Below the pieces are notes generated by a model that was not told the origin of the DNA, did not search any database, and worked only from the letters and a program-made list of their open reading frames with translations. The translations under genes were made by a program, and so were the position numbers. 64,000 nucleotides of DNA from Actinomycetota bacterium (lineage in GTDB: Bacteria; Actinomycetota; Thermoleophilia; Gaiellales; Gaiellaceae), in the NCBI GenBank assembly GCA_009702325.1, contig WLID01000008.1:1-64000 (forward strand). Reading direction: 5' to 3'. Position 1 is the first letter of the stretch. Every line of letters begins with the position of its first letter. This document shows positions 218 to 11,259 of this stretch, one piece after another.

Positions 218-2599
218 ATGGCTGATCTTTTGAACGAAGTCACTTCGAAGGAGTTCGGCCGCAAGTCGTTCCTCAAGGGCGGCGGCGCACTCGTCGTCGG
301 CTTCTCGCTCGCTGGAGCCGGTGCAGCCGGCAAGGCAGCAGGCGCCGGCCCGATCAGCGCAGGCAACCTGCCTGACGCCGCCCAGGTCGACTCGTGGATC
401 CGCATCAACGCGGACAACACCGTCAACCTCAAGACGAGCCAGATCGAAACCGGTAACGGCATCACCACCGGCTTCCTGATGGTCCTCGCCGAAGAGCTCG
501 ACATGGACATGAGCCAGATGATCTACGGCTCGTCCACCCACACGCTCGGCGAGGGTGGGCTCAACTCGGTCGTCGACACCAACGTCACGCTCAGCACGGG
601 TGGCCAGGGCGGCTCGAACGCGATGTCAGGCCAGGGCGGCAAGATCCGCGCAGCCGGCGTCGTCGCTCGCCAGACGCTCCTCGGACTCGCAGCAACGCAG
701 CTTGGTGTTCCGGCATCGAGCCTCACCGTCTCGAAGGGTGTTGTGTCAGGCGGCGGCAAGACCGTCACCTACGGCCAGCTCGTCGGCGGCAAGCTTCTGA
801 GCGCAACGATCCCGACGGCGGCGAGCAACATCGCGGCCGGCACCAACGGATCGAAGACGGTCAGCCAGTACAAGCTCGTGACGTCACGCGCACCGCGCAT
901 CGACATCCCAAGCAAGGTGCACGGCACCTACACCTACATCCACGCGCTCCGCATCCCCGGCATGCTCCATGGCCGTTGGATCCGCCCGCGTGGTCAGGGG
1001 CCGTACATGTCCGACGGTTGGGCCAAGCCGCTGAAGGTTGACACGACCGGAATCACGCACCTCAAGGGTGTCAAGGTCATCCAGGTCGGCGACTTCGTCG
1101 GCGTCGTTGCAGAGCGTGAATACGACGTCGTTCAGGCCGCTGCCCAGATCAAGGTGACCTGGGCCGACAGCCCAATCCTCCCGAGCCACACGGACGTTCA
1201 GAGCCAGTGGCGCAAGGCGGACTCGGCAGGCCAGATCCCGGCACGTATCACGAGCAACGTCGGCAACTTCGACACCGCGTTCGCGGGTGCGGCCAAGCAG
1301 GTCAGCGCCTCGTTCTACGCCGGTGCTCGTGGCCACAACCCGATCGGCCCGGGCTGCGCAGTTGGTATCTACACCAAGGGCTCAGGCGGCGCGTCGACCG
1401 ACAAGATCACGGTCTACAACAACACCCAGAACGTTGAGAGCGAGGCGCAGAACCTTGCAACCACGTTCGGTGTGCCGCTGACCAACGTGCAGGTCGTCTT
1501 CTACGAAGGCTCCAGCACCTACGGCAACGGCTACCACGCGTTCGACATCGCTCAGGCAGCAGCGCTGCTCTCGCGCGAGGCCGGCGCACCGGTTCGCCTC
1601 CAGCTCATGCGCTGGGACGAGCAGGGGTGGACGAAATATGGCCAGGCGTTCATGACCGACATCCGCGGTGGCGTCGATGCGAAGGGCAACATCGTCGCAC
1701 TCGAAGCAACGCAGTTCACGCAGCCGAGCACGTCGCTCTTCGCGACCGCTCAGATGATGGGCAACACGCCGCCGGCACTCGGCACGGGTAGCCCGAACAC
1801 CGAGAACATCGGTCCGTTCTACAACGTCGCGCAGAACACGGCGGGCAACATGGGTTACCGGGTCATCGCGAAGACGATCGGGCAGTCGCTCGGCATCTTC
1901 CAGTGCGGCACCCTGCGCGCACCGTCGGGTCCGCAGACCGCGTTTGCAACGGAGCAGTTCGTCGACATGCTCGCCGAATCGGCCGGCATGGATCCGCTCG
2001 CGTTCCGCGTGCAGAACATCCGCCAGGACGGGGAGTTCCCACGTTGGGCCGCAGCGCTTCAGACGGCTGTCGCTAGCTCCCCGTACAAGGCGCATATCCC
2101 TGCCTCGCTCGCTTCGAGCCAGACGGGCAATATCGCCACCGGCTGGGGTATGGCAATCGGCACCCACAACGCGGCCTACGCGGCCACCGTTGCCAAGGTG
2201 CAGGTCAACAAGAAGACCGGCAAGATCACGATCACGGATCTCTGGGCAGCCCAGGACTCCGGACTTGCGATCAACCCGGGCCTCATCGAGAACCAGATGC
2301 TCGGCTCCCTCATGCAGGGTGCGAGTGCTGCTCTCATAGAGGAGCTCCGCTTCGACACGCATCGCGTGACGAGCACCGACTGGGTCACGTATCCGATCAT
2401 GCGGTTCAAGGATGCTCCGAAGATTCACCTCAGTGTCATTCAGCGCACCGAGAAGCTGTCCGAGGGCTCCGGCGAGCCGCCGCTCGTCCCGGTTGTCCCC
2501 GCGATCGCGAACGCGGTGTACGACGCGCTCGGCATTCGGATGTTCAAGGCGCCAATGACGCCTGCATACGTCCGCGGCCGGATCGCTCAGGGCAAGTAA
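218..2599 (+). CDS. Molybdopterin-binding subunit of isoquinoline 1-oxidoreductase-like aldehyde/xanthine oxidase family enzyme
   Basis: This 793-residue protein has the length and layout of IorB-type large subunits. The C-terminal GSGEPPLVPVVPAIANA segment holds the family's catalytic glutamate, Glu753 here. The N-terminus reads FGRKSFLKGGG followed by a hydrophobic Ala/Gly stretch. This looks like a Tat signal with RK in place of the twin arginine, as expected for an enzyme exported with its cofactor. I chose the ATG at 218, directly after the small-subunit stop, over an upstream in-frame start at 137 that would overlap that gene. The reaction is probably hydroxylation of an N-heterocycle or aldehyde; the substrate is unknown. 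Confidence 0.88.
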   Translation: MADLLNEVTSKEFGRKSFLKGGGALVVGFSLAGAGAAGKAAGAGPISAGNLPDAAQVDSWIRINADNTVNLKTSQIETGNGITTGFLMVLAEELDMDMSQMIYGSSTHTLGEGGLNSVVDTNVTLSTGGQGGSNAMSGQGGKIRAAGVVARQTLLGLAATQLGVPASSLTVSKGVVSGGGKTVTYGQLVGGKLLSATIPTAASNIAAGTNGSKTVSQYKLVTSRAPRIDIPSKVHGTYTYIHALRIPGMLHGRWIRPRGQGPYMSDGWAKPLKVDTTGITHLKGVKVIQVGDFVGVVAEREYDVVQAAAQIKVTWADSPILPSHTDVQSQWRKADSAGQIPARITSNVGNFDTAFAGAAKQVSASFYAGARGHNPIGPGCAVGIYTKGSGGASTDKITVYNNTQNVESEAQNLATTFGVPLTNVQVVFYEGSSTYGNGYHAFDIAQAAALLSREAGAPVRLQLMRWDEQGWTKYGQAFMTDIRGGVDAKGNIVALEATQFTQPSTSLFATAQMMGNTPPALGTGSPNTENIGPFYNVAQNTAGNMGYRVIAKTIGQSLGIFQCGTLRAPSGPQTAFATEQFVDMLAESAGMDPLAFRVQNIRQDGEFPRWAAALQTAVASSPYKAHIPASLASSQTGNIATGWGMAIGTHNAAYAATVAKVQVNKKTGKITITDLWAAQDSGLAINPGLIENQMLGSLMQGASAALIEELRFDTHRVTSTDWVTYPIMRFKDAPKIHLSVIQRTEKLSEGSGEPPLVPVVPAIANAVYDALGIRMFKAPMTPAYVRGRIAQGK

Positions 2600-2621
2600 C
2601 ACTCCCTGAACTGGCTGTACT

Positions 2622-2649
2622 GCGAGGGGCCCGGCAACGGGCCCCTCGC
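2622..2649. terminator. Bidirectional hairpin terminator between converging genes
   Basis: A perfect 12-bp stem (GCGAGGGGCCCG with its complement) closes on a GCAA tetraloop. It lies between the plus-strand oxidoreductase stop and the minus-strand membrane protein stop. The flanking T content is weak (TCATT), so termination is probable rather than certain. Confidence 0.75.
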
Positions 2650-2660
2650 TCATTCTGGGC

Positions 2661-4334
2661 TTACGACGGGCAGGTTGCGGGGCCGGGAACGACGCGGTAG
2701 AGCGTGACGCCCCCAAGATGCTGCGACGGGTATTGGCCCGTGAGCAACGCCGTCCACGGCGAGGCATGCGCATCGTCGACGAGGATCGTTGACACCCCTT
2801 GCGCGGTCGCGATCGCAGCAATGTCGCCTGCCGAGATCGTGTCAACGTCGCCTCCACTATCGAGAACGAGCACCGACTCACGGTGGGGAATCGAAACAGG
2901 TGGATCGGGGCGGAGGTTGCCGTTTGCCAGCCGAAAGTGGAATCGTGCTTCGGCCTGCCACACCATCATCGCTGTCTGGTTTGGGTAGGGCAGCGCGAGC
3001 ACGTTCTCGCCGGGGCGGAGGCACTGGCTCTCAAGGGCGGAGGTGAAGAACGACGGGCGGTCGATAGTTCCGCGCCATCCCGATGAGGTTGGGGAAGGGA
3101 GGACGACGACGAGTGCGGCCGCGGCAATCCCGATTCGCGTGATGCTCGTCCTGGGCCCACCTGCCACAAACAGTGCGAGGAAGATCGCGACCGTCAAGGC
3201 GACGAATGCCGAGAGGCGCACGGGGAGCACGTTGCTGAGACCAGGAGCGGCGGAGAATGCGCGCCACGGGAGGACGACAAGCGAGTGGCCCATGACGTGC
3301 AGCGCTGTCCCGAGCTCAGCCACAACACCCGCCGCTGCGGCGACCGCCAGGAAGCGGATACGTGGCTCTCGCCACCGCATTGCGATCACGACCGCTACGA
3401 CGCCAAGCGCTGGCAGCCCGATGTAGGCGCCGTTCTCGCTGAGATTCCCAACAAAGCGGTCGGACTTCGTCACCGTCCAGCTCGTGGTGAGCAACGCGAG
3501 CCGAGTTGGGACGATGAGATTTGCCAGGTCGGCCGGAAAGTCGGCCGGACGGTTGATCGATCCGGTTTCGAAATGCCGTAGCGCGTACCAGACAAACGGT
3601 GCGGTGCAGGCTCCGGCAAGCCCGTACGCCGCTGCGAGCGGAGCGAATGCGGATCGCAACGCCGATCGACGATCGGGAATCAGGAGGAAGGCAAGGAGCA
3701 GGCCAACCGCGAGGGCGAGCGTGGCGGTGAGGAGCACCTCGGTCGAGAGCAGGAGTTGCCACGCGAGAAGCGCCCCGATGCGCACCACAGAGGCGCGCCG
3801 TGAGCGCTTGCCGTCGAGGAAGTCGAGCATCGCGATGGCACCCAGGGGCACCAAGAAGACCGAGCTCATGTGGAGATGCCCCTCCTCGTGCCCCGCCATA
3901 TACGGCGAGAAGCCAAAGAATGCGCCGCCGATGAGTGACGCCACGCGTGAGCCCGTGAGCCTGAGACACAGGAGGTAGGCGGTCGTTGCCGCGAGCGCCG
4001 GCAGTGCGAGGGCCGCGACGTTGTAGGCGACCACAGGGCCAAATGCGAGTGTCACGGGCGCGAGCGGGAGCGCAATCCCCGCTACCGAAGTTGTCCACGC
4101 GAGGTTGGCACCAATCGGCGCCCACACAGCGTGGGTGACGATTGGGTTCAGGCCGTGCAGAAGAGCGTGGGGCCACCAGGCGATCGACCACACGAAGATC
4201 TGTGGGTCAACACCCGTCCCGACGAGCGAGCGACCCGGATGCGCGAGCACCGAGCGGCCGTACAAGACGACGGAAAGTGCGGCGTATGCGAGCGGAACGG
4301 CCGATCCACGCGCTAGGCGAGAGACGTGTGTCAC
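2661..4334 (-). CDS. Polytopic membrane protein, GT-C glycosyltransferase-like
   Basis: A 557-residue protein made largely of hydrophobic segments, probably 11 to 13 helices, with a shorter soluble C-terminal part. Early loops contain GVDPQIFVWSIAWWPHAL and, further on, SPYMAGHEEGHLHM. An Asp-containing first loop followed by His/Glu-rich motifs is typical of membrane GT-C transferases that use lipid-linked sugars. The family is assigned by general resemblance only; donor and acceptor are unknown. The GTG start is preceded 6 bases upstream by TAGGCT on the minus strand and has no Shine-Dalgarno site. It is the last of four minus-strand genes after icd. Confidence 0.6.
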   Translation of the reverse strand: MTHVSRLARGSAVPLAYAALSVVLYGRSVLAHPGRSLVGTGVDPQIFVWSIAWWPHALLHGLNPIVTHAVWAPIGANLAWTTSVAGIALPLAPVTLAFGPVVAYNVAALALPALAATTAYLLCLRLTGSRVASLIGGAFFGFSPYMAGHEEGHLHMSSVFLVPLGAIAMLDFLDGKRSRRASVVRIGALLAWQLLLSTEVLLTATLALAVGLLLAFLLIPDRRSALRSAFAPLAAAYGLAGACTAPFVWYALRHFETGSINRPADFPADLANLIVPTRLALLTTSWTVTKSDRFVGNLSENGAYIGLPALGVVAVVIAMRWREPRIRFLAVAAAAGVVAELGTALHVMGHSLVVLPWRAFSAAPGLSNVLPVRLSAFVALTVAIFLALFVAGGPRTSITRIGIAAAALVVVLPSPTSSGWRGTIDRPSFFTSALESQCLRPGENVLALPYPNQTAMMVWQAEARFHFRLANGNLRPDPPVSIPHRESVLVLDSGGDVDTISAGDIAAIATAQGVSTILVDDAHASPWTALLTGQYPSQHLGGVTLYRVVPGPATCPS

Positions 4335-4340
4335 CGCCCG

Positions 4341-4346
4341 AGCCTA
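4341..4346 (-). promoter_or_regulatory. -10 box for a probably leaderless transcript of the membrane protein gene
   Basis: TAGGCT on the minus strand ends 6 bases before the GTG start at 4334, with no ribosome site between. This matches the start-proximal TANNNT pattern seen at many genes here. Confidence 0.45.
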
Positions 4347-4366
4347 ACGACAGCGGGCGATGCTCG

Positions 4367-5356
4367 TCAGAGCCAGTTCTTGTAACGGAAGAACGCGAGC
4401 ATCGAGACAACAGCGGTGGCCATCGTGCCGAAGATCGTCCAGAACGCCCAGACGGTTCCAAAGCCGGGGAACTCGACGTTCATGCCAAAGAAGCCTGTGA
4501 TCAAGGTCAGCGGCAGCAAGATCACCGAAAACACGGTCAGGATGCGCAGCACATCGTTCTGGCGGTGCTGAATCACGGATTCGTTGGTGCTCTCGAGAGC
4601 CTCGATGACTTCCTTGTAGTTGTCGAGGATGTCCCAGATGCGTTCTGCGGCGTCGATGATGTCGTCGTAGTAGATCTCGAGTTCCTCGGGCAGGAACCGT
4701 CCGACGTGGCGATCGAGCAGCCGCAGCGTCGTACGCTCCGGCTTGACGATCTTGCGGTAGGAGATGATCTCCTGCTTGACGTTCGAGATGTCACGAACGA
4801 CCTCGTTCGACCGGCCCTCGAACACGTCGTCTTCGAGAGCGTCGAGCTTATGGCCGATCTTGTCGAGAATCGGGAAGCAGTAGCCGAACAGGTCGTCGAG
4901 CACCTCGTACAACAACCGTCCGGAGCCCATCGCAAAGAGCTGCTCGCGGTAGGCCTCGTCCTCTTCGCACCGGCGAAACAGTGCCTCGAGCGGCCGCAGT
5001 TGAACGGTGGGGAAGGTGACGATGTAGTTCGGGCCGATGAAGAAGTCGACCTCACCGGCATTTAGACGCTGAATCGACCGGTCGTAGACCGGGAAGTGCA
5101 GAACGCCAAAGAGGTATCCGTCATCGGCGTAGTCGTCGACCTTCGGGCGCTGGCGCTTCGAGAGAACATCCTCGACATCAAGGGGATGCCACCCAAACCG
5201 CTCCGCAAGTGCCTGCGCCTGCGCGTGCGTCGGCGAATTGAGGTGGATCCAGGTGAGGCCAGCGGCGGTGAGCTCAGCGGGCGCCGACTGCGGGCGCGCA
5301 GCAACGATCGCGCTGTCGCGCGTGCGAGGACGACGGATGCGAGGCAAGCTCGGCAC
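4367..5356 (-). CDS. corA: CorA family magnesium/cobalt transporter
   Basis: A 329-residue protein with the CorA layout: an alpha/beta cytoplasmic N-terminal domain, a long helical stalk (about residues 140-270), then two C-terminal membrane helices. The signature GMN sits in FFGMNVEFPG near residue 290 at the end of the first helix, and the protein ends in the basic tail RYKNWL. CorA forms a pentameric channel for Mg2+ (or Co2+/Ni2+) entry. The GTG at 5356 starts the conserved frame; a GAGGA lies about 14 bases upstream. It is followed 32 bases later by the membrane protein gene. Confidence 0.93.
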   Translation of the reverse strand: MPSLPRIRRPRTRDSAIVAARPQSAPAELTAAGLTWIHLNSPTHAQAQALAERFGWHPLDVEDVLSKRQRPKVDDYADDGYLFGVLHFPVYDRSIQRLNAGEVDFFIGPNYIVTFPTVQLRPLEALFRRCEEDEAYREQLFAMGSGRLLYEVLDDLFGYCFPILDKIGHKLDALEDDVFEGRSNEVVRDISNVKQEIISYRKIVKPERTTLRLLDRHVGRFLPEELEIYYDDIIDAAERIWDILDNYKEVIEALESTNESVIQHRQNDVLRILTVFSVILLPLTLITGFFGMNVEFPGFGTVWAFWTIFGTMATAVVSMLAFFRYKNWL

Positions 5357-5428
5357 CGGTACTGAGTGGGTCCTCGAGGATCGTGAGCACGGGCATGTCG
5401 AAAAGTGTACCCGGTGCAGCCACTTTGG

Positions 5429-5944
5429 CTACCGCGGCCCGAGCAACGAGAGGCTCAAGGCTCCGTGCTCGCACACGCTCGTTGGCGGCAGCACCGGCAA
5501 TAGAGCGCTTCCACCACCGTTTGGGACGACGCGAACGCGGGTAGCGATCGGCTCGCACCGCCCAAGTTGCTGCTCACCAGGGCCAGGAACATCAGGCGAG
5601 AAGCGTGCCTCAAGGGCGGCTACACCTCCGGGGTGCAGATCGACCCGAATCGCCATCAACATGCCGGGGTGTTCGGCACGGGCAGCGGTGGGCAGGTGCT
5701 TGCCGCGTCGGCCGATGAGCGTCAGATGCGGGATCCCGCTCACGAAACACGCGGCCTTCGAACTGTTCCGAAGCACGAGGCGGTAGCTGACGTTGCCAGC
5801 GCCCGCGCTTCCCTTGATCGCGGCGAACGCGCCCGAGAGTTGCTTGCCGACGCAGGGCGGACTGGAACTCTGTGCCGCGGCGCCACTCACGAGGAGCAGC
5901 GCCGCAACACTGAGAGCAAGTCCGGCGAGCGGCAGACGCCGCAC
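5429..5944 (-). CDS. Secreted DUF4232-type protein
   Basis: A 171-residue protein with an N-terminal signal peptide (MRRLPLAGLALSVAALLLVSGAAAQ). The mature part has spaced cysteines and the pattern YRLVLRNSSKAACFVSGIP, typical of the DUF4232 beta-sandwich family common in Actinobacteria. Function is unknown. The GTG start lies one base after the icd stop, so translation is probably coupled to icd. I see no functional link between the two products. Confidence 0.75.
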   Translation of the reverse strand: MRRLPLAGLALSVAALLLVSGAAAQSSSPPCVGKQLSGAFAAIKGSAGAGNVSYRLVLRNSSKAACFVSGIPHLTLIGRRGKHLPTAARAEHPGMLMAIRVDLHPGGVAALEARFSPDVPGPGEQQLGRCEPIATRVRVVPNGGGSALLPVLPPTSVCEHGALSLSLLGPR

Positions 5945-5945
5945 G

Positions 5946-7193
5946 CTACATCCGTTCGATCATGGCCCGGCCAAATGCCGAGCACGAAACCTCTTTCGCC
6001 CCGTCGAGCAGGCGAGCGAAGTCGTACGTGACGATCTTGTCGGCGATCGTCGCCTCGAGTGACGAGATCACGAGGTCGGCCGCGTCGATCCAGCCCATGT
6101 GGCGGAGCATCATCTCGGCCGAGAGGATCAGCGAGCCGGGGTTGACCTTGTCCTGCCCGGCGTATCGCGGCGCGGTGCCATGGGTCGCTTCGAACATGGC
6201 GACCGTGTCGGACATGTTCGCGCCAGGCGCGATGCCGATACCGCCAACCTGCGCAGCGAGTGCATCCGAGACGTAGTCACCGTTCAGGTTGAGCGTCGCG
6301 ATCACGTCGTACTCGGCCGGGCGCAGCAGGATCTGCTGGAGGAACGCATCGGCGATCACGTCCTTGATCACGATCTCGCCGCCGGTGTTCGGGTTCGTGA
6401 TGCGCATCCACGGCCCTCCGTCGAGGAACGTCGCACCGAACTCCCGCTCTGCGAGCCCGTAACCCCAGTCGCGGAACGCGCCCTCGGTGAACTTCATGAT
6501 GTTGCCCTTATGCACGAACGTCACTGAGGCACGGTCATTCGTGATCGCGTACTCGATCGCCTTGCGCACAAGCCGTTCGGTGCCTTCGCGCGAGACCGGC
6601 TTGATGCCGATCCCCGAGGTGTTCGGGAAGCGAATCTTTGTGACATCCATTTCGCGTTGGAGGAAGTCGATCACCTTCTTCGCATTCGGCGTCTCAGCCT
6701 CCCACTCGATCCCGGCATAGATGTCCTCGGTGTTTTCGCGGAAGATCACCATGTCGGTCTTCGACGGATCCTTGAGCGGGCTCGGAACACCTTCAAACCA
6801 CCGCACCGGGCGCAGACACACGAACAGATCGAGCTCCTGACGCAAGGCGACGTTGAGCGAACGGATGCCGCCACCGACGGGAGTGGTCATCGGACCCTTG
6901 ATCGAGACGGAGTATTCGCGAACGGTGTCAATCGTCTCTTGCGGCAACCAAACGTCAGAGCCGTAGAGCCGCGTTGACTTCTCGCCGGCATAGACCTCCA
7001 TCCAGTGGATCTGGCGTTCACCGCCGTACGAGTGCGCAACGGCAGCATCGACGACGTCCTTCATGACCGGTGTGATGTCGATCCCGATGCCGTCACCCTC
7101 GATGAACGGGATGATCGGATTGTCAGGCGTCGGCTGCCCCGGAACGATCTTCGTTCCGCCGGTCGGGACGGTGATGCGTGAGTCGGCGCTCAT
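5946..7193 (-). CDS. icd: NADP-dependent isocitrate dehydrogenase
   Basis: Oxidatively decarboxylates isocitrate to 2-oxoglutarate in the TCA cycle. The 415-residue protein follows E. coli Icd closely along its length, for example [29 protein letters not shown] and [18 protein letters not shown] preference is indicated by [16 protein letters not shown] and the later VTYDFARL (Tyr and Arg contacts to the 2'-phosphate). Ser112 in [13 protein letters not shown] corresponds to the serine that AceK phosphorylates in E. coli. AAGGAG lies 4 bases before the ATG. The divergent gene starting 62 bases away encodes AceK, so the target and its regulator sit together. Confidence 0.97.
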
Positions 7194-7255
7194 GTCGGCT
7201 CCTTGCTCTCGTCGTGGCGTCTAGCCCTAAAGGGTAGGGGAGAAGCGGCCCGAGG
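7194..7255. promoter_or_regulatory. Divergent icd-aceK promoter region with CCCT-AA-AGGG inverted repeat
   Basis: These 62 bases separate the two start codons and must carry both promoters. An inverted repeat, CCCT AA AGGG, lies at 7225-7234 near the middle, where a shared regulator could bind. No regulator is identified. Confidence 0.45.
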
Positions 7256-9073
7256 GTGTCAGGTCGTGTCGTCTACCCTGACCTCAACAATGCGGAACAC
7301 GATCTGATGCGGCGAATCGGCTCCTCAGAAGCACTTGCACATCGGGCCGCAGAGATCCTTCTCGACGGCATCGATCGGCACTTTGAAACGCTGCGCGAAG
7401 CGAGCGCTGAGGCGCGGCAACGCTTCGAGACCGGGAACTGGGCTGCCGCCGGGCCTGCGCTCCGTGCGCGGCTCGAATACTACGACGAGCGCCTTGCCGA
7501 AACGATCGACCGCCTCGATGCTGAGGTCGCAATTCGGCGACGTGACGACGATTTCTGGCGCCGCATCAAGCATCACTACACCGGCCTGATGATCGATCAC
7601 AAGCGGCCCGAGCTTGCGGAGACCTTCTTCAACTCGGTCATCACACGCGTGCAACGCTCAACCTACGTGCGGCATCCGCTGATCTATTCGCGCGCGACGA
7701 TCTCGACGGAGCACATTCCGGCCGATCCTCCGGTGTATCGGAGCTATTACCCCACGGAGCACGGCTTCCGTGAGACCCTCGTTCAGATCTTCCAAGACTT
7801 CGGGTGGAAGCGGCCGTTTACCGACCTCGAGCGCGACACGGGCTATGTCGTGCGAGCGCTCACCGAACAGACGGCCGAGTGGGTGGAGCAGGATCCCAAC
7901 CATCAGATTCAGGTGCTGTCGTCAGCCTTCTACCGCAACAAAGCGGCGTATGTGATCGGCAAGGTCGTGAACGGCAATTTCGAGACGCCGTTTGTCGTGC
8001 CGGTTATTCACGATGAGCAGGGAGGCCTGATGCTCGACACGGTGCTGCTTGCATCGAGTGACCTGAGCATGCTGTTCTCACTCTCCCGTGCGTACTTCCT
8101 CGTGGAGCTCGACGTGCCGTCGGGCTACGTCGAGTTCCTCAGCGGGATCATGCCGCACAGCCTTCGCTCGGAGCTCTACAGCGCCCTTGGCTTTCTCAAG
8201 CAAGGAAAGACGCTGTTCTTCCGCGACCTTGTGCACCATCTCCGCCAGTCGAACGACCTCTTTGTTGAAGCGCCCGGCACGCGCGGTCAGGTGATGCACG
8301 TCTTCAATCTCCCGTCGTACCGCTACGTGTTCAAGATCATCAAGGACGTCTTCGGCCCGACGAAGAACATCGATCGCGACACCGTGAAACAGAAGTTCCG
8401 CATGGTGCGTGAGGTCGATCGCGTTGGTCGACTTGCCGATGCCGTCGAGTTCGAGAATCTCGCACTTCCACTTAATCGATTCGCGCCGGAGCTGCTGGAG
8501 GAACTCCAGCGCGTAGCGGCCTCGTCGATCGAAATCGTTGGCGACGACCTGATCGTGAAGCACTGCTATGTGGAACGGCGCATGACGCCGCTCAACGTCT
8601 ACCTCGACCATGCGACGCCGGCGGAGCTCGACCGGGTTGTGCGCGGCTACGGCAACGCCATTCGCGAACTTGCGATCGCGAACATCTTTGCGGGCGACCT
8701 GCTGTGGCGGAACTTCGGTGTCACGCGACACGGCCGTGTGGTGTTTTACGACTACGACGAGCTCGAGTACCTCACAGACTGCCGCTTCCGGCGGGTTCCC
8801 GAACCGCCGAACCCCGAAGCGGAGATGTCGAGCGAGCCGTGGTACGCCGCCTCACCGGGCGATGTCTTCCCGGAGGAGTTCGAGACCTTCCTGCTCGGCG
8901 ACCCGCGCGTACGCGAGCTGTTCCTCAAATATCACGCGCAGCTGCTGACACCAGAGTTTTGGATCGAGTGTCAGCGTCGAGTGGAGGCGGGGGAGGTCGT
9001 CGAGTTCTTCCCGTACCACGAGTCGCTTCGGTTCTTCCGCCGGTACGGCGACCAAGCGCTCGTACCGGCATAA
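7256..9073 (+). CDS. aceK: Isocitrate dehydrogenase kinase/phosphatase
   Basis: AceK phosphorylates and dephosphorylates isocitrate dehydrogenase, switching carbon between the TCA cycle and the glyoxylate shunt. The 605-residue length fits the family. The kinase core is clear: YRYVFKIIKDVF carries the ATP-binding lysine; IFAGDLLWRNFGVTRHG carries the catalytic Asp (Asp481); FYDYDE follows as the metal-binding segment; then SEPWYAASPGDVFPEEF. The N-terminal regulatory part is also full length. The start is uncertain: GTG 7256 is the longest option and an ATG near 7306 is possible. It is divergent from icd. The shunt genes aceA and aceB are not in the window. Confidence 0.95.
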   Translation: MSGRVVYPDLNNAEHDLMRRIGSSEALAHRAAEILLDGIDRHFETLREASAEARQRFETGNWAAAGPALRARLEYYDERLAETIDRLDAEVAIRRRDDDFWRRIKHHYTGLMIDHKRPELAETFFNSVITRVQRSTYVRHPLIYSRATISTEHIPADPPVYRSYYPTEHGFRETLVQIFQDFGWKRPFTDLERDTGYVVRALTEQTAEWVEQDPNHQIQVLSSAFYRNKAAYVIGKVVNGNFETPFVVPVIHDEQGGLMLDTVLLASSDLSMLFSLSRAYFLVELDVPSGYVEFLSGIMPHSLRSELYSALGFLKQGKTLFFRDLVHHLRQSNDLFVEAPGTRGQVMHVFNLPSYRYVFKIIKDVFGPTKNIDRDTVKQKFRMVREVDRVGRLADAVEFENLALPLNRFAPELLEELQRVAASSIEIVGDDLIVKHCYVERRMTPLNVYLDHATPAELDRVVRGYGNAIRELAIANIFAGDLLWRNFGVTRHGRVVFYDYDELEYLTDCRFRRVPEPPNPEAEMSSEPWYAASPGDVFPEEFETFLLGDPRVRELFLKYHAQLLTPEFWIECQRRVEAGEVVEFFPYHESLRFFRRYGDQALVPA

Positions 9074-9078
9074 CTCAT

Positions 9079-9150
9079 GCGCCCGGCTGGAATCGAACCA
9101 GCGACCTTTCGCTCCGGAGGCGAACGCTCTATCCCCTGAGCTACGGGCGC
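9079..9150 (-). tRNA. tRNA-Arg (anticodon CCG)
   Basis: Seventy-two bases fold as a full cloverleaf on the minus strand: acceptor GCGCCCG/CGGGCGC, D arm GCTC...GAGC, anticodon stem TTCGC/GCGAA around loop CTCCGGA, and T arm GCTGG-TTCGATT-CCAGC. The anticodon CCG reads CGG arginine codons. CCA is not encoded. It converges on aceK with only 5 bases between them. Confidence 0.96.
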
Positions 9151-9232: not shown

Positions 9233-10231
9233 ATGGAACTCCGCGCCGAGAAGGTCACGGTGTATCTCGCCGAGACGTTCACGATCGCCCGCTCATCGGA
9301 GGATGAGGCGGAGGTCGTACAGGTTGCAGTAACGCATGGTGGGGTTACTGGCTACGGCGAGGCCGCGCCGATCGCGCGCTACGAGGAGTCGGCCGATTCG
9401 GCGCTCGCGTGGCTTCAGCACGTGACGCTCGGCGACGATCCCTGGGCGCTCGACGACATTCAGGATCTGCTCCCGCGAGGAGAGCAGGCGGCACGGGCTG
9501 CCGTCGATGCGGCGCTCTACGACCTGCAGGGGAAGCTCGTCGGCCAGCCGGTCTACAAGCTGCTCGGTCTTCGGCGCGTGGGCCCCCCGACGTCGTGGAC
9601 GGTGTGGCTCGGTGATCCCGACGATATGGCGCGCCGTGCAGAGAAGGCCGAGGCCCGCGGCTTCAAGCGGCTAAAGCTCAAGCTCGGCGGCCGCGACGGA
9701 CTCGACCTCGAGCGCGTGCGGCAGGTGCGCGCGGCCAGCTCCGTACCGCTGATGGTCGACGTCAACGAGTACTGGACGCTCGATGAGGCACTCGACGTCC
9801 TTCCGCAGATGGAGATCGAGTACTGCGAGCAGCCGCTCCCGGCCGGCAGCCCCGATGGTCCCGAGTTGAAGCGAAGGTCGCCGATCCCGATCTACGTCGA
9901 CGAGGACTGCCACACGCTTGCTGATGTCGCAGCGTGCGCCGAACGCGCCCACGGCATCAACATCAAACTCGCGAAGTCAGGCGGAATCCGTGAGGCCGTG
10001 AAGATGGCGGCGGCCGCACGCGCGCTCGACCTCGGAGTGATGCTCGGCTGCATGGTCGAATCCGGGCTAGGTATCGCCGCGGGCGCGCACATGGCAAGCC
10101 TTTGCGACCACGTCGATCTCGACGGCAACCTGCTCCTCAGGTCGGACCCATGGCCGGGTGTGGCGTGGGAAGACGGCATACAACTACCAGCCGACGCACC
10201 AGGCCTCGGCGTCGAAAGGGCGGCGACATGA
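9233..10231 (+). CDS. Enolase-superfamily epimerase (dipeptide epimerase / N-acetyl-D-glutamate racemase type)
   Basis: A 332-residue muconate-lactonizing-type enolase-fold enzyme. The N-terminal capping domain is followed by the barrel with general-base KLKLG, metal ligands in VDVNEYW, EYCEQPL and VDED, and the second base in KLAKSGG; LGCMVESG follows. This is the residue set of L-Ala-D/L-Glu epimerases. The next gene overlaps by four bases (ATGA) and encodes a DUF1611 protein. In the described DgcN-DgcA pathway this pairing converts D-glutamate via N-acetyl-D-glutamate to N-acetyl-L-glutamate. I infer either that role or dipeptide epimerization in cell-wall peptide recycling. Confidence 0.85.
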   Translation: MELRAEKVTVYLAETFTIARSSEDEAEVVQVAVTHGGVTGYGEAAPIARYEESADSALAWLQHVTLGDDPWALDDIQDLLPRGEQAARAAVDAALYDLQGKLVGQPVYKLLGLRRVGPPTSWTVWLGDPDDMARRAEKAEARGFKRLKLKLGGRDGLDLERVRQVRAASSVPLMVDVNEYWTLDEALDVLPQMEIEYCEQPLPAGSPDGPELKRRSPIPIYVDEDCHTLADVAACAERAHGINIKLAKSGGIREAVKMAAAARALDLGVMLGCMVESGLGIAAGAHMASLCDHVDLDGNLLLRSDPWPGVAWEDGIQLPADAPGLGVERAAT

Positions 10232-11259
10232 GCGACCGGCGCGTACTGATTCTCGCGGAGGGCTTTTCGGGTGATCCGCACTTCGGCAAGACCGCTCGCG
10301 GTGTGATGCGCTACCGACCGGCCGAGGTAGTTGCGCTGCTCGACTCAGAGCGCGCCGGCGAGACCGAGGGGGGATTCCCCATCGTCGGGAGCGTCGCCGA
10401 TGCGCTCGCGCTGAAGCCGACCGTCGCACTCGTGGGCGTCGCGCCGGCCGGGGGACGGTTCCCGCCTGCCTGGCGGGCGATCTTGCGCCAGTGCATCGAG
10501 GCCGGCCTTGACATTGAGAGCGGCCTGCACGAATTCCTGATCCGGGACGACGAGATGACCGCGCTCGCCGCCATGCACGGCGTGAGCCTGCGGGATCTAC
10601 GCCTCGCCCCGAGCGGGCTCAACGTGCCGACAGGGGCGAATCTCACCCACGGCAGCAAAGTCGTGACCACCGTTGGCTCCGACTGCGCGATCGGAAAGAT
10701 GACGGTTGCACTCGAACTCGACGCCGAGGCGCAGCGTCGCGGGATCAAGAGCGAGTTCGTTCCGACAGGACAGACGGGGATCGCGATTGCCGGTTGGGGG
10801 ATGTCGGTTGACGCGGTCGTCGCCGACTTCATCGCAGGTGCAACCGAGCAACTCGTGATGGAGGGAGTTGAGCGCGGGGGAGAGCTTCTGTGGATTGAAG
10901 GCCAGGGTTCGCTGCTCCATCCGTCGTACTCGGGCGTCACGCTCGGACTGATCCACGGGAGTGCGCCGCACGTCTACGTCCTGTGCGACAAGCCCGTCGA
11001 GCCATTCGTCGACGAGAATCCCGCGTTTCCGAAGCCGTCGTACACGTTCCTCGTCGATCTCCATGAGCGGATGTCACTGATCGGGCGACCAGCCAAGGTG
11101 GCCGCAATCGCGCTCAACACGCAGGGATTGACAGACGAGGGGGCGCGGGCGGCCGTTTCGGCGGCTGAGGCCGATTCGGGACTCGTCGCAGACGACCCCG
11201 TTCGGTTCGGGGCGACGCGACTCGTCGACGCTGTGCTCTCCGCGCTCGGCGAATTGTGA
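10228..11259 (+). CDS. DUF1611 family P-loop protein, candidate D-glutamate N-acetyltransferase (DgcN-like)
   Basis: A 343-residue protein matching the DUF1611 family: an N-terminal Rossmann-like domain (FPIVGSVADALA) and a C-terminal P-loop NTPase-like domain with VGSDCAIGKMTVALEL and later EGQGSLLHPSYSGVTLGLIHG. The ATG at 10228 overlaps the epimerase stop, so the two are translated together. The described DgcN enzyme of this family acetylates D-glutamate, and DgcA, an enolase-fold partner, racemizes the product. The function here is inferred from family plus neighbour. Confidence 0.8.
   Translation: MSDRRVLILAEGFSGDPHFGKTARGVMRYRPAEVVALLDSERAGETEGGFPIVGSVADALALKPTVALVGVAPAGGRFPPAWRAILRQCIEAGLDIESGLHEFLIRDDEMTALAAMHGVSLRDLRLAPSGLNVPTGANLTHGSKVVTTVGSDCAIGKMTVALELDAEAQRRGIKSEFVPTGQTGIAIAGWGMSVDAVVADFIAGATEQLVMEGVERGGELLWIEGQGSLLHPSYSGVTLGLIHGSAPHVYVLCDKPVEPFVDENPAFPKPSYTFLVDLHERMSLIGRPAKVAAIALNTQGLTDEGARAAVSAAEADSGLVADDPVRFGATRLVDAVLSALGEL

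Follow-up and report, generated by a model that had tools for sequence, protein, structure and literature searches.

The 64,000-nucleotide stretch of DNA analysed here (the window) corresponds to contig 12 in a genome of 1.91 Mb that is 93% complete and belongs to a member of the Gaiellaceae (Gaiellales, Thermoleophilia), a soil-type actinobacterial family that is almost wholly uncultured. The host is thus an actinobacterium, as had been suspected from the sequence, and its close relatives in the family include Candidatus Gaiellasilicea maunaloa. The locus consists of two divergently oriented genes, icd and aceK, followed by a tRNA gene (Table 1). AceK is a full-length protein, in agreement with the original prediction: both Pfam domains are complete (PF20423, 302/302, E 3.5e-107; PF06315, 255/256, E 3.2e-113), and the NCBIfam equivalog NF002804 matches over the full length at 786 bits (cut-off 488), which places the protein in this family. 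The alignment with E. coli AceK (PDB 3eps) extends across residues 31-600 (E 2e-142). The translation start is most likely the ATG at 7307, which is the sole in-frame start that the gene has in common with its two 91%-identical relatives; the GTG at 7256 is absent from them. With the ATG, the two genes are separated by 113 bp, and the distance of 62 bp proposed earlier depends on the GTG.

Table 1. Features of the icd-aceK locus, in coordinates of the window
Feature	Coordinates	Strand	Length, basis or remark
icd, E. coli-type NADP-isocitrate dehydrogenase, presumed AceK substrate	5946..7193	-	415 aa; profiles, alignment
Ser112 codon (Ser113 in E. coli), putative phosphorylation site	6858..6860	-	Phospho-loop identity
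Intergenic spacer from start codon to start codon, presumed to hold the divergent promoters	7194..7306	.	113 bp; sequence and start comparison
TACCCT, candidate -10 element of icd	7231..7236	-	Kept in two close relatives
TACCCT, candidate -10 element of aceK	7274..7279	+	Kept in two close relatives
aceK, isocitrate dehydrogenase kinase/phosphatase	7307..9073	+	588 aa from ATG 7307; 605 aa with GTG 7256
Arg codon at catalytic-loop Lys461 (E. coli numbering), within GDLLWRNFG	8708..8710	+	Residue comparison
tRNA-Arg(CCG), edge of insertion slot	9078..9150	-	4 bp past the aceK stop

The product of icd is confidently assigned to the E. coli type of isocitrate dehydrogenase (NF005425, 766 bits, cut-off 490; TIGR00183, 703 bits, cut-off 567), is collinear with E. 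coli Icd and contains the NADP-specificity residues R344 (conservative for Lys), Y345, Y391 and R395. The presumed target serine, residue 112 in this protein and 113 in E. coli when Met is counted, is present as originally claimed, and the surrounding phospho-loop (residues 104-120) is identical to that of E. coli in 17 of 17 positions. The AceK recognition segment, which distinguishes AceK substrates from other isocitrate dehydrogenases (IDHs) (PMC3521221, PMC4999502), has the same length as in E. coli, with 24 of 37 residues identical and no indel, whereas the corresponding segment of the native IDH of Gaiellaceae contains a large deletion and retains 4 identical residues of 37.

The roles of the catalytic residues of AceK are known from the E. 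coli enzyme (PMC3747045, PMC6591243). K336, D457, N462 and D475, along with the phosphatase residues D477 and E478, are conserved in 13 of 13 Gaiellaceae AceKs, so the earlier statement that all kinase motifs are present holds for these positions. It does not hold for Lys461, which is replaced by Arg in the window protein (residue 468) and in the other Gaiellaceae AceKs (13/13), compared with Lys in 62 of the 62 other AceKs sampled. The change is conservative and affects a position outside the family definition, so that family membership is not in doubt. In the computed mechanism of E. coli AceK, Lys461 contacts the gamma-phosphate and Ser113 (PMC3747045), and its replacement in every carrier could be taken to indicate that the Gaiellaceae AceK is degenerate or re-purposed, with its activity abolished or redirected. 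This appears improbable because the remaining catalytic residues, those of the phosphatase included, are all kept, AceK has been conserved beside icd over the long term, and Arg plays the equivalent part in the insulin receptor kinase (PMC3747045). Given this precedent, the Gaiellaceae AceK is expected to be active, and the K461R replacement could alter its rates or its kinase/phosphatase balance.

The spacer carries a candidate -10 box for each of the two genes. Boxes of the form TAnnnT are located 6-9 nt ahead of an in-frame aceK start in 8 of the 13 family loci (L024, L033, L034, L036, L037, L038, L040 and L042), and this close spacing suggests that the aceK mRNAs are leaderless. In the window, the icd-aceK cassette occupies the slot between corA and a tRNA-Arg(CCG)-dgcA-dgcN block. 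The same tRNA gene adjoins dgcA in AceK-less congeners, where the slot contains roughly 1.5-9 kb of other sequence in those cases in which both ends are readable. The stretch from corA to tRNA-Arg(CCG) is a variable chromosomal slot, with gene contents that differ across the genus (the window, L262, L263, L264, L265, L267 and L269). The dgcA-dgcN-like pair next to the cassette (9233-11259; tentatively of the N-acetyl-D-Glu racemase/N-acetyltransferase type) scores well under the respective NCBIfam cut-offs (251/400 and 252/480 bits). No attachment-site repeat of the tRNA-Arg end, of at least 11 bases, was found around the cassette (positions 2500 to 9030). Nucleotide composition is uninformative as a trace of transfer: the G+C content of aceK and icd is 0.61-0.62 versus 0.643 for the window, and their third-position G+C (0.78-0.83) is inside the range of the neighboring genes.

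AceK is rare in the phylum, with scores above the cut-off in only 9 of 396 genomes sampled across Actinomycetota. Within Gaiellales, it is encoded in 13 of 129 genomes, all of them from Gaiellaceae. In each of these 13 carriers, an icd of the E. coli type is located beside aceK in the divergent orientation, and none of the 116 AceK-less genomes of the order encodes such an Icd (Fisher 4e-18 for co-occurrence, relatedness ignored), their best IDH being only 43-47% identical. A contaminated bin can be excluded because the genes flanking the cassette are collinear with those of congeners and, in addition, a relative carries the same pair in a single-contig genome of 2.6 Mb.

Outside the family, the best AceK matches come from Rhodocyclales (53-57% identical), compared with 36-40% for other Actinomycetota. 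The AceK tree unites the 13 Gaiellaceae sequences in a single clade (SH-aLRT 100) inside Betaproteobacteria, with Methyloversatilis and Uliginosibacterium as the nearest neighbors (95), and in the Icd tree the Gaiellaceae are also inside the betaproteobacterial clade (98). The AU tests reject a grouping with other Actinomycetota: p-AU is 0.0005 for AceK, 0.035 for Icd, where the signal is weaker, and 0.0016 for the joined AceK and Icd sequences. It is therefore extremely improbable that an ancestor of Actinomycetota or Thermoleophilia already had the pair and that most lineages lost it: AceK and longer Icds do exist in a few other Actinomycetota, but these AceKs are the more distant ones, not vertically related to those of Gaiellaceae, and in the wider order AceK is confined to this one family. 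The outcome named at the start as refuting the original prediction, an AceK that is widespread in the class and vertically inherited there, does not hold. Together, the trees and the AU tests imply that the cassette was transferred as a single unit into Gaiellaceae, out of Betaproteobacteria. The class of the donor is better supported than its order (Rhodocyclales) because, although a separate clade of the 52 betaproteobacterial AceKs is rejected (p-AU 1.4e-8), a betaproteobacteria-only clade is not rejected for Icd (p-AU 0.094) or for the joined set without Burkholderiales (0.457); the joined set leaves the branch inside Rhodocyclales unsettled.

The gene order in the putative donor group is informative as well. 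At 15 loci of Rhodocyclales, icd and aceK are divergent neighbors no more than about 1 kb apart; at 8 further divergent loci, a few of them in Chromobacteriaceae, the distance between the two genes is about 2.6-3.8 kb. In principle, aceK and icd could have been acquired separately and become neighbors only later, considering that the two genes are far apart in E. coli. Such a history is highly improbable given that both genes come from the same donor class and that their divergent order is the same in Rhodocyclales and in 13 of 13 carriers. The strict co-occurrence, the shared donor class and the shared head-to-head order all support the joint movement of the target and its regulator that was proposed originally. 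Plasmids provide no source for this lineage: the plasmid records of AceK are only from enterobacteria, Aeromonas and Proteus, and are 37-41% identical.

Apart from the entry into the family, the cassette appears to have changed places within it. Its flanks are homologous only among close relatives (G000, the window genome, with G488 and G489; G430 with G432) and are unrelated between genera, as judged from the strong tblastx matches alone, since many weak matches arise by chance in G+C-rich DNA. Two carriers from the same genus hold the cassette at different sites. Moreover, rpoB groups the window genus, whereas the AU test speaks against a single clade of the cassettes of this genus (p-AU 6e-7, or 3e-5 with four rows). 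A single import followed by strictly vertical inheritance with losses, the differences between neighborhoods being due to rearrangement, would be compatible with the monophyly of the cassette in the family and with the flanks shared within the two species groups, but is unlikely in view of this rejection and of the unrelated flanks and different sites. The conflict between the cassette tree and rpoB, combined with the unrelated neighborhoods across genera, indicates that the cassette also moved within the family. Altogether, the divergent icd-aceK cassette very probably derives from one transfer from a Rhodocyclales-like betaproteobacterium to an ancestor of Gaiellaceae, with later moves between lineages of the family.

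The import was accompanied by changes in the native complement of dehydrogenases. In Gaiellaceae that lack AceK, the IDH is shorter (about 365 aa) and does not contain the recognition segment; at most of the 18 loci examined, its gene immediately precedes mdh, in several cases with gltA on the other side. Of the AceK-less family members, 76 of 90 were found to encode this native IDH, versus 4 of 13 carriers (Fisher 1.3e-4, relatedness ignored), although such absences, and likewise those of isocitrate lyase, may be overcounted because several of the genomes are incomplete MAGs. Six carriers (G175, G450, G456, G457, G459 and G483) still have gltA and mdh at this locus, without the intervening icd. 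No monomeric IDH was found in any of the 13 carriers, so that the imported Icd is the sole IDH found in nine of them, including the window genome; the other four retain an IDH of the native type. Probably, the imported enzyme took over in most carriers, where no other IDH is detected, and the native gene was dropped from the gltA-icd-mdh locus. Because the imported Icd contains the recognition segment that the native IDH lacks, the regulator and the target had to arrive together. In two carriers, G479 and G493, the E. coli-type icd reads in two pieces (L037 4863-6102, L036 1-591), which could reflect a frameshift, an assembly error or decay; both genomes also keep the native IDH. Neither the window genome nor the two genomes closest to it (G488 and G489) yielded an ortholog of the mdh of the family, and malate oxidation in these three organisms may use another enzyme.

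The carriers also possess the bypass that AceK would be expected to control. Isocitrate lyase is encoded in 13 of 13 carriers versus 70 of the 116 other genomes of the order. The search for aceA and aceB elsewhere in the window genome, suggested along with the original prediction, identified both genes, adjacent to each other on a contig other than that of the cassette: aceA scores 758 bits against a cut-off of 562, and the adjoining malate synthase A gene, cut by the stretch that was read, scores 377 bits for its N-terminal part. By homology, when the bypass is needed, for example with acetate or fatty acids as growth substrates, AceK would use ATP to phosphorylate Ser112 of Icd; the phosphate would block isocitrate binding and thus direct isocitrate to AceA and AceB. 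Under energy shortage, the same active site of AceK would remove the phosphate. Most likely, the pair performs the classical reversible inactivation of Icd via Ser112, which opens the glyoxylate bypass. The conserved residues and the co-occurrence of the genes lend good support to the prediction that this lineage of Gaiellaceae switches isocitrate flux by phosphorylation; the enzymatic activity and its effectors, including the sensitivity to AMP expected of an AceK, are predicted by homology.

The system is of a known kind but in an unexpected host. It shares with AceK/Icd of E. coli (PDB 3eps, 3lc6/3lcb) the two-domain AceK, all catalytic residues but one, the phospho-loop and recognition-segment length of Icd, and the presence of isocitrate lyase and malate synthase A. 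The differences are that E. coli aceK belongs to aceBAK whereas in Gaiellaceae it lies beside icd, and that the latter have Arg in place of Lys461, an actinobacterial host and an Icd that replaced the native IDH. The loci of Rhodocyclales (Methyloversatilis, Uliginosibacterium, Rhodocyclus and Accumulibacter) show the same head-to-head arrangement, and their Icds are 76-82% identical, but they retain Lys461 and reside in betaproteobacterial hosts. The AceKs of other Actinomycetota (G057, G151, G203, G263, G308, G331 and G340) likewise contain the full AceK domains, and an E. coli-like Icd, where found, accompanies AceK; however, icd adjoins aceK only in G151, the Icd recognition segment is shorter, and the AceKs comprise a separate deep lineage. 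The shorter segment of these Icds is of another sequence type (SW..EDCGGDPGDRLLV), and this second AceK lineage and its Icds (loci L025-L031; L194, L198, L206, L209, L210 and L212) might represent a co-evolved kinase-substrate variant. One AceK of this lineage has Glu at the position of D457. In mycobacteria, control of ICD and ICL is also an actinobacterial control at the same branch point, but it operates without AceK, through metabolites (PMC4999502).

AceK has been described as limited to Gram-negative bacteria (PMC4999502), and Gaiellaceae break this limit by importing the regulator and the target together. No earlier description of such a case was found in the open-access papers searched, although one may exist elsewhere. 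The original prediction is extended by the direction of the transfer, the disappearance of the native IDH from most carriers and the movement of the cassette among Gaiellaceae. The carriers represent a natural experiment in which a covalently controlled enzyme of central metabolism replaces an uncontrolled one, and their K461R replacement is a clade-wide natural variant at a position that, according to the computed mechanism, contacts both the gamma-phosphate and the target serine. A broader, tentative possibility is that a target-plus-modifier pair of this type acts as a self-contained mobile replacement unit that displaces an unregulated native enzyme of the TCA cycle and moves between chromosomal sites of the family, its kinase/phosphatase having perhaps been retuned by a fixed Lys-to-Arg replacement that would alter the balance of the two activities in the new host.
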